From assembly GCA_958296045.1 (NCBI GenBank), contig CATQHT010000003.1, positions 1,623,246 to 1,687,245 on the forward strand: a DNA stretch of 64,000 nucleotides, given 5' to 3'. The DNA comes from Rhodothermales bacterium (lineage in GTDB: Bacteria; Bacteroidota; Rhodothermia; Rhodothermales; Bin80). Shown here one piece after another: positions 8,403 to 23,374 of the stretch (positions within the stretch are counted from its first letter, which is position 1; every line of letters starts with the position of its first letter). The notes beneath the pieces are model-generated. The model was given only the letters and a program-made list of their open reading frames with translations, made no database searches and was not told the DNA's origin. The translations under genes and the position numbers were made by a program.

Positions 8403-9320
8403 TCATGAATCAGGAGGTTTTTTTAGATCGTTCGGCTCACTGGAGTATTCCTCCTTGCTTCTTGTCGCCGCGGGATCGTAGCTCATGCCCAGACAATGGA
8501 CGATCCGCTGCAAGCATGGCGTCAACTTCTGATCCACTTTGAGGACGATATAGCGGTGCTTACTCTTTGGTAGCACCGTGGTAATCCGATGGATCCGGTT
8601 GAGTTTGAAGCGGAGCGCATTCCAGCTTTCATGGACATGGTTGGCCTTGAGCTTGGTGCGGATCAAATGGGACACGTGGTAGGCCAGCACGGTAATGAAC
8701 AGATGTCCTTCAATCCGCTCATCTTTGCTGTGATAGATAGGCCGTAATCCCAGGTCGGACTTCATGACTCGGAACGTGGCCTCAATCTCCGTGAGCCGCC
8801 AGTAGGTGCGCGCAATCTTTTTGGCAGACCAGGTGGTATGGCTGGTGCTGAGCACATACCCTCCGGCGGCCTGGGTTTTTTTCTGATGGGAGGTACGCTT
8901 GCTAAACGTGACCGATGCGGCACGCTGTGTCCCCTCCTTCTGCTTCACCTCAACCTCATACAGGTGGGCCACCGACTTGTACTTCTCCTGCAGGCGACCA
9001 ACCTTGCGTTCGACTTTCTTGATATTTTTCAGGCGTCTGGGCACGGGCAGTCCCTCATGGAGGTATTGCAGTGCCGCTTCAAACTGGTCACATTTGGTCT
9101 GCAAGATCTGCTCGTCGGTGGCCTGCCGGGCTTCACTGTGTACATAGACGCGCACTACTCCCTCCTCCTCGGGGAGCTTCCAAGCCCGGACTTTCACCTC
9201 ATTAGCGGTTACAAACTCTTGATCGGGTGCCTGGGTGGGCACAGGAGGCACCCTTTTTCGCTCCACACAGATCCAGTTGAGGTTGTTTTCCTTCAAGTAC
9301 GCCAGATTTGCTTCGGTGGC
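8403..9320 (-). CDS. IS1634-like transposase, 3' exon (C-terminal half)
   Basis: 305 codons plus stop, resuming with GCC ACC GAA GCA (A-T-E-A-N-L-A-Y-L-K-E-N-N-L) directly after the intron. It contains YWRLTEIEATFRVMKSDL, which carries the final catalytic glutamate in the Y-x2-R-W/L-x-I-E-x-x-F form typical of IS4-like transposases, then PIYHSKDERIEGHLFITVLA. Together the exons encode about 596 residues, a normal length for an IS1634 transposase, with all three acidic residues plausibly intact. I infer a functional enzyme if the intron is spliced out. Confidence 0.8.
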   Translation of the reverse strand, partial: ATEANLAYLKENNLNWICVERKRVPPVPTQAPDQEFVTANEVKVRAWKLPEEEGVVRVYVHSEARQATDEQILQTKCDQFEAALQYLHEGLPVPRRLKNIKKVERKVGRLQEKYKSVAHLYEVEVKQKEGTQRAASVTFSKRTSHQKKTQAAGGYVLSTSHTTWSAKKIARTYWRLTEIEATFRVMKSDLGLRPIYHSKDERIEGHLFITVLAYHVSHLIRTKLKANHVHESWNALRFKLNRIHRITTVLPKSKHRYIVLKVDQKLTPCLQRIVHCLGMSYDPAATRSKEEYSSEPNDLKKPPDS

Positions 9321-9999
9321 GTCGAGTAGCCCGGGGGAATCTCACCCCCAGGCCCTCACAGATCCGGACGTGCGCGTCTCCACGCATCCGGCTCCTCCCG
9401 GCCCGTCAGACGGTTGTTTCCAACCCTCCAGAGCTGCCTCCCAAAGGAACCTCCCGTTTCCGGTTGTCCTAAGATCAACAACAGACCAGGGTACTCCCTT
9501 CGCTCCACCTCCATTACAGAGGGTTCATCGCTACTACGAAGTACTCCGCCCCTGTGCCCCGCATCGGTACTCAATCGCTTGAGGTATTTCCTCTTGCGAG
9601 TCTCCCTTAACATCAGGACGACAGGTTCCCACGTTCCACACAAGAGCCTAATCCGACCTCTTGCCGCCTTTATGCCGGAGGCCACCAGGGCAGTAAGCAG
9701 ATCTCTCCCTGACTGTTCCCGGAGCAGGTACCCAACCCCGGTTTTGACCTCTTCTAAGGAGGTTTCGACACGTCATCAGCGGTTCGCTTGCGCTCAACTT
9801 GAACGGATCACACCTGACCCGATCTTTGCCGGGCCTTTTCTTGCCTGCTTACCACCACGCCTCTTAAGCGCAGCAGCGGCAAGCGGTTTGGTGCCTCCGT
9901 CTGCACGGCGGCACCGAGGGGCCTACCCTCATCTCCTGTGCAGCATAGCTGCAGGAAGGTTACGTCATATCAGTAACCCTCCGCGCCTTCGTGGCGCAC
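9321..9999 (-). ncRNA. ORF-less group II intron
   Basis: On the minus strand the element begins GTGCG at 9999-9995, the canonical group II 5' end, and ends GAC at 9323-9321 (AY-type 3' end). Domain V is the 34-base hairpin at 9394-9361, starting GAGCCGGATGCG and closing CGCACGTCCGGATC. Domain VI at about 9357-9327 is a G/C hairpin with a GTGAGAT loop region. The inner part has typical intron core text such as CGTGGGAACCTGTCGTCCTG and GTAATGGAGGTGGAGCGAAG. AATACC at 9588-9583 complements the last six exon bases GGTATT, a candidate EBS1/IBS1 pair. Joining the exons gives D-A-G-I|A-T-E-A-N in frame. At 679 bases it has no room for a reverse transcriptase, so splicing would need a maturase from elsewhere. 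Confidence 0.88.
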
Positions 10000-19615: not shown

Positions 19616-22600
19616 ATGGTAGAATTTGATTCTATAAAGGAGCAGGTCCGGGCCGCCACGGATATCGCGGAAATCGTCGGCGGATACGTAAAGCTGAAAA
19701 GAAGGGGTAAAAGCCTTGTCGGGTTGTGCCCATTCCACAACGAGCGCACTCCCTCGTTTTACGTGACGCCCGATATGGGTATGTACAAGTGCTTCGGATG
19801 TGGCCAGCGGGGTGACGTTTTTGGATTCGTGATGGCAATGGAGTCCAAAACTTTTCCAGAAGCTATGCGGAGCCTAGCAGAGCGGGCACAGATCCCAATG
19901 CCCGAGCGCGGAAAAAGCGGCACTCGCGCGAAGCAATACGCTCGCAACCGTGCTGCGCTGGAGCTGGCGGCGACATTTTTTCGGACGCAACTTCAGAAGG
20001 CGCCCCCAGGCGGGCCGCTTCAGCAAGAGCTCCGCAAGCACCATGTGACAGATGCCCTAGTACGGGAGTTCGGCATAGGGTACGCGCCCGATGACGTTGA
20101 TGGCTTAGTGGGTGCGGCGCAAGCTGGGCAGGTATCCCTCAAGGCGCTGAAGGAGGCGGCGCTGATTGTGTCCTACGACGGTGACGAAGAGTACCGCGAC
20201 CGGTGGCGCGGGAAGCTTGTCTTACCGATGCACTCCAAGGATGGCCGCCTTGTCGGGTTTGCAGCGGGAACCCTGGCGGGCCCTGAGCATGAGCTGGCGT
20301 TCCATCATCGCTTGCACAGCCCCCGCCGAGTGCTGTTCGGGCATGTGCAGGCGCGTGCCGCCATGCGTGCAGCAACAGAGGTGTTCTTAGTGCGCGACAT
20401 GGCGGATGTCCTGGCCATGCATAAGGCTGGCATCACCAATGTGGTCGCCTGCCTGGGCACCTCCCTAACGCCAGACCATCTACAGATGCTAAAGCCTTTC
20501 GCCCAGCGCTTAGTGTTGGTGCACGACGCTCAGCCGGCAGCGGTGGGCTCGGCGATCCGCATGGTGCACACGGCACTGCGTGGGAGCATGAGCGTGTATG
20601 CTGTCACGCTGCCGCAGGGGTTGGGTCCAGCAAGAGTGATTGAGACCGATGGCGTAGAGGAGCTGCAGACGTGGCTCCGGGATCACCGCACCGACTTCTT
20701 GAGCCTCATAGCAGCAGCCCAGGAGCCTGTGCGCGGACGACCGGCGGCGCAGGTGAAGCACGACGCGTGTCGCGCCATCGCGACAGCCCTGGCCAACGTG
20801 GAGGATCCGCTACTGCAGGGAGAGTATTCCCTGAAGGGTGCTTCCACACTGACGCTTGAACCGGAACTGATGCGCGGGGCGATCAGCAAGGCGCATAAGG
20901 AGCGAACGATCCAGGTCGCGCTGGAGCATTACCAGGACGAGCTGCTTCATACGACCATGGGCAGGACCGTGTGTGCGCACCTGGAGCAGAGGTACGGACT
21001 GCGCAATCACCACATTGACCAGTTTGGCCTCGGCTTCGCGCCCGAACAGTGGGATGGTCTTAAGCGTGCTGCTCTTAGGCGCGGCCTGACAGAATCCGCG
21101 CTTTACGAGGCGGGCCTAGTCAGAATGAAAGAGCGTCCAGAAGGGCCGTGGCATTATGATCGATTCCGGGGTCGAATCATGTTGCCGCTCTATTCAATTG
21201 AGGGTCGCCTCTTAGCACTGCGAAGCGCACACATGTCTGGAATCCAGACATCGAGACGTTTTGGCAAGGTGGTCGAGGACACGGATTCAGATGTGCACAC
21301 GCTGTTCGGGCTTGCCCAGTGCTCAGCAGCCGCGGGCAGACATAAAGAGGTGTGGGTCGTCGACGACTTTCGCGATGTGCTGGCGCTTCATGCGGCTGGA
21401 GTAACGAATGTGGTATCTGTGGTGGGCGGAGCGCTGACGTCTGAGCAAGCTGCCGCCTTGCGGCTGGTCGCTCCACGCATGGTGCAGATCACCAAGGCTC
21501 AGGATGTCGAATCGAAGCCGCTATTGCGCACACTTGCTGCGGCCCTGGCCGCTGGCCTTGGGGCCGATGCGGTTGAACTTCCTGGTGGCAGCTGTCGCCA
21601 GATGTTGCGCAAACTGGGACCAGAAGCCATTGTCGAAACGGTAAAGCAGCATCGGCGCGACTTTGTGCAGATGGTATACGAAGATCAACATGCGCGCGGG
21701 CTACTCACGGATGCGCATCAGCTGAACCGTGTCCAAGAGGAGCTGGCGACGATGACCGGCCGGATCGCGGACAACACAACACGACAATGGTACGAGGCAC
21801 GCGCAGCAGCCATGGACCGCGTGGAACGCATCTACGATGCTGTGGCGTTTGCCGCACATTTTTTTCGGAGCCAGCTCAATGGCAAAAAAGAAGGAACCGA
21901 GGCTGCACGCTACCTCAAGGATCGCGGGCTGCACGCCGAGATCATCGAAGCATTCGGGTTGGGATTTGCTCCCAACCGATGGGACGCGCTCCTGAAGGCC
22001 GCCCAGCGCCACGGGATATCACAAGAGATTCTAGAAGCCGCAGGCCTTATACGCCCGGGCACGGATGGCAGGCGGCCGTATGACTATTTTCGGGGACGCG
22101 TGATGTTTCCGATTCGCGACACACGCGGGGAGATTCGTGGCTTTGGGGGGCGCATCCTGCAGCCGAATGAACGGGCACCCAAGTACCTGAATACGCCCGA
22201 AACGCCCATCTTCAGAAAGCGCCAAGTGCTGTATGGTCTACCGCAAAGCATGCGCCACGCCCGAACCGCTGGTGAGATGATCCTCGTGGAGGGGTACACG
22301 GATGTGCTTGCGTTGCACCAGGCGGGCATCAGGCATGCGGTGGCCGCGTGTGGGACAGCCCTTACCGGGGGCCAAGTCAGCGTCATGCGCCGCTACGCGG
22401 ATCGTTTATTGCTGCTCTACGACGCGGACCCGGCCGGCGCTAAGGCAGCTGTGAGTGCTATTGACCTTGCGCTGGAAGGCGGCCTGGTACCGTTTGTCGT
22501 TGCGCTACCAGAAGGTGAGGATCCAGACTCGTATGTGGTGCACCACGGCGCGGAGGCTCTGCAGGACTACTTGGCGCGGCACCGCAGAGACTTTGTGACG

Positions 22601-23374
22601 TTTCTGCACGAGCATTCTGGCGCGCAGGGCGCTTTCGACACGCCAGAAGGTAGGGCGGAAGCCACCCACAAGGTGTTGGATGCTATTGCTTTGGCCCAGG
22701 ATGCGACGTTAAGGAGGAAGGCGATGAAGCGGGCTAGTACATTGTTTAATGTACCGATGGAAGATATTGAGAGGGTGGTGGGTGAGAAGGTGCCGCACGA
22801 TTCCGATCCGCGCGAGCAGGTGCCGGATCCCGAGCCACCCGAGCGCGATGCCTCCAGACGGATGCATGATGCGAAAAGAAAGCCGGCTTCGGTGCGGCTG
22901 CATGCTTCGGAAATCGCACTCCTTGAGCTGATGGTAACGGGTGGCCGCGAAATGACCGGATTCATTATGCGGCAGCTGAACGAGGAGCATTTCACTAAGG
23001 GTCCGGCGAGACGTCTGGTGATACTGCTGCTGGAGGCATACCGGCGTGATATGTCTGGCATAGCGTTGCCACCGGACGATGCAGAGCTGGATCGCTTGGT
23101 TAGCAAGCTTAAGGAGGACAAGCCTGTCCCATCAGAGGGCTGGCAGAAGCGGAAGATGGGCAGCGTCCAATACAATATGGACAGAGAGGACGCCGCTCTT
23201 GGTGCGATCCGGCGCCTCAAGCTGCTCCGGCTGGAGGAAGCGAGGATGGTGTTAGAGAGGCGTCTTCGCGCCGCTGGTCCAGCCGACCAGGATCGCCTAT
23301 TGCAGGAGCTGATGGAGCTGGATCGTATAAGAGCCGGACTGGGCTCGCTCGACCACAATAGCGACAGCCCATAG
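19616..23374 (+). CDS. dnaG: DNA primase with three tandem catalytic-core copies
   Basis: A 1252-residue DnaG, about twice the usual 600-650. Residues 1-100 are the CHC2 zinc domain (C38, H41, C59, C62; CPFHNERTPSF and CFGCG). Then the RNA-polymerase core occurs three times: about residues 110-370, 435-693 and 736-1000. Each copy has the AAxFFRxQL-type helix, an FGxGxAPxxWD block, a FRGR(V/I)M-P strand and a TOPRIM fold with LALHxAG. Only copy 3 keeps the metal sites: E892-G-Y-T-D896, D936-A-D938 and D969-P-D971. In copy 1 these are R260, D264, D304/Q306 with the third pair lost; in copy 2 D583, D587, K627/Q629 with the third pair lost. The C-terminal 250 residues are a helical, helicase-binding-like region. 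The duplicate cores are diverged but the frame is open throughout, so they are probably selected. Confidence 0.95.
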   Translation: MVEFDSIKEQVRAATDIAEIVGGYVKLKRRGKSLVGLCPFHNERTPSFYVTPDMGMYKCFGCGQRGDVFGFVMAMESKTFPEAMRSLAERAQIPMPERGKSGTRAKQYARNRAALELAATFFRTQLQKAPPGGPLQQELRKHHVTDALVREFGIGYAPDDVDGLVGAAQAGQVSLKALKEAALIVSYDGDEEYRDRWRGKLVLPMHSKDGRLVGFAAGTLAGPEHELAFHHRLHSPRRVLFGHVQARAAMRAATEVFLVRDMADVLAMHKAGITNVVACLGTSLTPDHLQMLKPFAQRLVLVHDAQPAAVGSAIRMVHTALRGSMSVYAVTLPQGLGPARVIETDGVEELQTWLRDHRTDFLSLIAAAQEPVRGRPAAQVKHDACRAIATALANVEDPLLQGEYSLKGASTLTLEPELMRGAISKAHKERTIQVALEHYQDELLHTTMGRTVCAHLEQRYGLRNHHIDQFGLGFAPEQWDGLKRAALRRGLTESALYEAGLVRMKERPEGPWHYDRFRGRIMLPLYSIEGRLLALRSAHMSGIQTSRRFGKVVEDTDSDVHTLFGLAQCSAAAGRHKEVWVVDDFRDVLALHAAGVTNVVSVVGGALTSEQAAALRLVAPRMVQITKAQDVESKPLLRTLAAALAAGLGADAVELPGGSCRQMLRKLGPEAIVETVKQHRRDFVQMVYEDQHARGLLTDAHQLNRVQEELATMTGRIADNTTRQWYEARAAAMDRVERIYDAVAFAAHFFRSQLNGKKEGTEAARYLKDRGLHAEIIEAFGLGFAPNRWDALLKAAQRHGISQEILEAAGLIRPGTDGRRPYDYFRGRVMFPIRDTRGEIRGFGGRILQPNERAPKYLNTPETPIFRKRQVLYGLPQSMRHARTAGEMILVEGYTDVLALHQAGIRHAVAACGTALTGGQVSVMRRYADRLLLLYDADPAGAKAAVSAIDLALEGGLVPFVVALPEGEDPDSYVVHHGAEALQDYLARHRRDFVTFLHEHSGAQGAFDTPEGRAEATHKVLDAIALAQDATLRRKAMKRASTLFNVPMEDIERVVGEKVPHDSDPREQVPDPEPPERDASRRMHDAKRKPASVRLHASEIALLELMVTGGREMTGFIMRQLNEEHFTKGPARRLVILLLEAYRRDMSGIALPPDDAELDRLVSKLKEDKPVPSEGWQKRKMGSVQYNMDREDAALGAIRRLKLLRLEEARMVLERRLRAAGPADQDRLLQELMELDRIRAGLGSLDHNSDSP

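Follow-up and report, generated by a model that had tools for sequence, protein, structure and literature searches.

The only DnaG primase found in the assembly of a Rhodothermales bacterium (GCA_958296045.1) carries three tandem copies of its catalytic core in one chain, of which only the last keeps the catalytic residues. The two dead copies, which are predicted to remain folded, are retained in three related Rhodothermales genomes. The gene lies in a 64,000-nucleotide stretch (hereafter the window; contig CATQHT010000003.1, positions 1,623,246 to 1,687,245 of the forward strand), and encodes an uninterrupted protein of 1252 residues comprising one zinc domain, three full RNA-polymerase domains (RPDs), each consisting of DNAG_N, TOPRIM and a helical subdomain, and one C-terminal domain. 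Pfam search identified a single Zn_ribbon_DnaG (PF01807, residues 8-97, 110 bits against a cut-off of 24.9), three DNAG_N stretches and three Toprim_2/Toprim_4 stretches, whereas the NCBIfam model TIGR01391 (dnaG) matched the protein with 670 bits in three stretches. The second and third DNAG_N matches have E-values of 1.5e-14 and 1.1e-12 for one genome, and thus are not due to chance. A profile built from 32 single-core DnaG frames of relatives aligned to residues 5-431, 433-734 and 731-1241, which shows that the repeat unit is the whole RPD including its helical subdomain. The last alignment reaches position 616 of 627 of the profile and thereby covers the C-terminal helicase-binding domain, although the Pfam model PF10410 scored only 16.5 bits, below its cut-off of 20.6.

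Table. Features of the triple-core dnaG and of its surroundings, in window coordinates; residue numbers refer to the 1252-residue protein.
Position	Strand	Feature	Residues	Remarks
19616..23374	+	dnaG, triple-core primase	1-1252	stop codon included
19616..19906	+	CHC2 zinc-binding domain	1-97	ligands C38, H41, C59, C62 present; structural match to 1d0q (Foldseek)
19928..20905	+	Copy 1 RPD, catalytically dead	~105-430	R260 for Glu; D304/Q306; third Asp pair lost
20906..21814	+	Copy 2 RPD, catalytically dead	~431-733	D583 for Glu; K627/Q629; ssDNA-tracking residues W479, R516, R518 kept
21815..22780	+	Copy 3 RPD	~734-1055	all catalytic residues present
22883..23371	+	C-terminal domain	~1090-1252	aligned to the C-terminal domain of single-core relatives
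20861..20950	+	Predicted continuous helix joining copy 1 to copy 2	416-445	AlphaFold model
21773..21883	+	Predicted continuous helix joining copy 2 to copy 3	720-756	AlphaFold model
21245..21292	+	Degenerate counterpart in copy 2 of the NTP-binding PKYLNSPET loop	544-559	predicted disordered (pLDDT < 50)
22289..22303	+	Active-site motif of copy 3	E892...D896	
22421..22429	+	Asp pair of copy 3	D936/D938	
22520..22528	+	Asp pair of copy 3	D969/D971	
9321..9930	-	Group II intron pieces		RF00029 at 9321-9396, RF01999 at 9812-9930
8403..9296	-	DDE transposase frame		beside the group II intron pieces

The first-pass annotation had described a primase with three tandem cores, two of them with ruined TOPRIM sites, and this observation proved correct in frame, length and every residue named. 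The repeats are somewhat longer than it gave, and NTP-binding basic residues are lost in addition to the metal ligands. The conditions it had set as possible refutations were examined. The frame is uninterrupted, and a search of the assembly (4.78 Mb, 4 contigs, 96.7% complete) for DNAG_N and CHC2 returned no match other than this gene, so that a second functional dnaG is excluded as far as the assembly allows; an assembly error is likewise excluded, as shown below, and relatives outside one small clade do have an ordinary dnaG.

Two other genomes of the same family, placed in a different genus from the window's genome (G000), have the same build: G002 (Rhodothermales bacterium, a single 3.2-Mb contig, OX638318.1), whose DnaG has 1358 residues, and G006 (Rhodothermales bacterium Plut_88872, JAAXGV010000039.1), whose DnaG has 1217 residues. 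The G002 gene (locus L034, 5495-9574) carries in addition a partial TOPRIM plus helical subdomain inside copy 2 (residues 690-844), giving four TOPRIM-like units in one primase. All other genomes tested have no more than one core per frame, typically in ordinary DnaGs of ~600-700 residues. These comprise 111 others in the order (three of which had no match and a few of which are fragmentary), about 390 Bacteroidota genomes (a few have two DNAG_N matches, and none has three apart from the window's genome), and the other 78 loci of a set of named relatives, a few of which are the only representatives of phyla other than Bacteroidota. An origin from a phage or plasmid was also considered and rejected: a scan of viral contigs found no relative, and in the phage and plasmid matches (the top six records of each) the two query copies align to one stretch of about 0.8-1.05 kb, i.e. 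single cores.

Phylogenetic analysis of the RPDs showed that the copies group by position, with copy 1 of the three genomes forming one clade (support 100/100), copy 2 another (100/99) and copy 3 a third (99/97). The triplication thus preceded the split of the two genera, and the copies have evolved separately since, although long branches meet in the tree and leave the order of the duplications unresolved. A tree of DnaB, an independent marker, also groups the three genomes, with modest support (80/84). The likely sister in this tree, G004, could not be used for comparison, as its own DnaG is missing from its assembly, which holds only a different, plasmid-like primase. This 607-aa frame (locus L038, 778-2601) has an unusual swapped order, with the DNAG_N/TOPRIM core before the CHC2 zinc domain, and probably comes from a mobile element.

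To assess which cores are alive, we compared 71 columns that are near-invariant in the 32 single-core DnaGs, using E. coli numbering, over the three genomes. Copy 3 keeps 17/18 metal-ligand cells, 12/12 NTP-contact cells and 8/9 cells of the ssDNA-tracking site W165/R199/R201. In contrast, copy 1 keeps 4/18, 3/12 and 4/9, and copy 2 keeps 6/18, 2/12 and 8/9, respectively, whereas the other near-invariant positions are about half kept in copies 1 and 2 (89/174, 91/174). K229, Y230, N232 and E265 are lost in both dead copies of all three genomes. The roles of the tracking and NTP residues are experimentally defined in E. coli, S. aureus and B. subtilis (summarised in PMC5429622). In copy 2 the tracking site is kept more than the metal and NTP residues (Fisher p 0.0015) and more than the other invariants (p 0.03); however, these counts are small and non-independent, resting on three positions in three genomes, and the retention could instead reflect a structural role of W165/R199/R201. 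Moreover, copy 2 of G006 has lost R199. The active copy 3 of the window's primase has Tyr in place of R199, while its dead copies 1 and 2 keep Arg there, and the active copy 3 of G002 has Ala at the position of D347, an Asp kept in all 32 single-core DnaGs compared. The net charge of the cores was uninformative.

The first-pass annotation inferred selection on the dead copies from the absence of stop codons. Its conclusion is supported but its argument is not, because an open frame upstream of an essential core is kept anyway. Better evidence comes from the conservation of the copies across two genera, and from nonsynonymous divergence that is below synonymous divergence for every copy and pair (dN 0.52-0.74 for copies 1 and 2, 0.32-0.42 for copy 3), although dS is saturated and the ratios are only a rough guide. 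In addition, 20 residues in copy 1 and 7 in copy 2 are invariant across the three genomes but rare or absent in 35 active cores. AlphaFold predicted all three RPDs as well-formed folds, with a mean pLDDT of 87 over residues 1-1062, joined by long continuous helices. Copy 2 modelled alone has a pLDDT of 88.7, and structural similarity search aligned it to solved DnaG RPDs, including the ssDNA-bound 3b39, with a TM-score of about 0.80. However, the pTM of 0.58 means that the mutual placement of the cores should not be trusted.

We tentatively propose that this protein is the replicative DnaG primase of a lineage in which the RPD became three tandem copies in an ancestor shared by at least two genera. 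What our analysis establishes is the domain architecture, the restriction of the catalytic and NTP-binding residues to copy 3, the maintenance of copies 1 and 2 as position-specific lineages, and the prediction of an RPD fold for each copy; the mechanism that follows, including primer synthesis, attachment to DnaB and template holding, is inferred. In this view, copy 3 makes all primers, and the C-terminal domain tethers the chain to DnaB as in ordinary DnaG; the genome encodes one ordinary DnaB frame of 474 aa. The dead copies would act as a partly stiff arm of folded scaffold modules between the zinc domain and the active core, which are separated by 830 residues from zinc-domain Cys to active Glu, compared to 198-201 in single-core relatives. 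Copy 2, with its ssDNA-tracking groove largely intact, would probably hold template near copy 3, whereas copy 1 would be mainly a spacer or protein-contact module. One such chain would supply in cis part of what several DnaG molecules on one DnaB hexamer supply in trans, with effects on template capture, the site where priming starts and primer length, not on chemistry. The interpretation in the first-pass annotation, that the pseudo-cores serve template holding, primer length or inter-subunit regulation, is therefore only partly supported: template holding finds support for copy 2 alone and only as a lead, whereas a role in primer length or inter-subunit regulation is merely plausible from the ~630-residue insertion between zinc domain and active core. 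A further-reaching version, unlikely on present evidence but not excluded, is a single-chain primosome arm, in which the dead cores form a dedicated device that holds template ssDNA and positions the zinc domain away from its own active site, so that initiation-site choice and primer length are set by pseudo-cores within one molecule, replacing the multi-molecule DnaG assembly on DnaB.

A serious rival, possible though somewhat less favoured, is that copies 1 and 2 are trapped relics. In this reading the triplication was fixed by chance, the two copies lost activity because one core suffices, and they persist without a function of their own only because a misfolded or truncated in-frame domain would destroy the essential copy 3 and C-terminal domain downstream; purifying selection may then only mean that they must fold. 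Consistent with this, the active-site residues decayed differently in each genome (the Glu265 position is R/P/T in copy 1 and D/N/Q in copy 2), copies 1 and 2 diverge faster (32-42% identity between the genomes versus 50-59% for copy 3), the conserved residues are largely structural motifs, and G002 even carries the further partial TOPRIM. By contrast, a clean deletion restoring the single-core build would be selectively free under this reading and was not seen in three genomes of two genera, and both the copy-specific invariant residues and the selective keeping of the tracking residues in copy 2 argue against it. A less likely alternative is that the dead cores bind other replisome proteins, other DnaG chains or a regulator rather than DNA, and tune primase recruitment or switching. 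Copy 1 has lost NTP, metal and most ssDNA contacts yet has the most copy-specific invariant residues, and pseudoenzyme domains of this kind are common in general; however, no partner was identified, and DnaB in these genomes is a single ordinary frame. An assembly or annotation artefact, such as a mis-joined or collapsed paralogue set, is refuted for practical purposes by the same build in independent assemblies, one a single contig, by the cross-copy identity of only about 25-35%, and by the absence of a second dnaG.

Compared to ordinary bacterial DnaG, which has a single RPD, the protein has all domains in order and a complete active site in copy 3, with R/K/N of the NTP site, but two further, dead RPDs lie between the zinc domain and the active RPD. 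The nearest precedent for a kept but dead primase core is the mitochondrial helicase Twinkle, for whose N-terminal domain the term pseudo-primase is used (PMC9723800), and which the structural search returned as a distant match. Copies 1 and 2 similarly combine a predicted primase fold with the loss of catalytic residues; however, Twinkle is fused to a helicase and has no active primase core, whereas here dead and active cores share one chain, in which no SF4 helicase domain was found. In the multi-primase primosome, three DnaG helicase-binding domains can occupy a DnaB hexamer (one when DnaB is on ssDNA; PMC12418098), and the zinc domain of one DnaG can act on the RPD of another (Corn 2005, as cited in PMC12418098). 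Several RPDs are likewise near one helicase there, but they belong to separate, identical active chains; the triple-core chain could supply several RPD-shaped modules from a single tether. In phage T4, a single gp61 primase sits on the helicase, and the linker between its zinc domain and RPD was proposed, with only weak support, to measure primers (PMC10359460); that linker is ~19 residues long and changing it had only a subtle effect, compared to ~630 folded residues here. In agreement with the first-pass annotation, which knew of no described primase of this build, our searches of the open-access literature found no triple-core primase.

Replicative primase is essential, and its domain build is highly constant across bacteria. 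A lineage that replicates with one live and two dead cores in its primase offers a natural experiment on how many RPDs a primosome needs, whether zinc domain and active core work in cis or in trans, and whether a core can serve as a template holder separate from chemistry, and makes the job of extra primase cores at the replication fork testable. The DnaB comparison further revealed that, in ten of sixteen genomes of the family (loci L154-L158, L162-L164, L166 and L167), DnaB carries an insert of ~240-280 residues after reference residue ~218, probably an intein, which is lacking in the three triple-core genomes and in three others (G005, G012 and G014).
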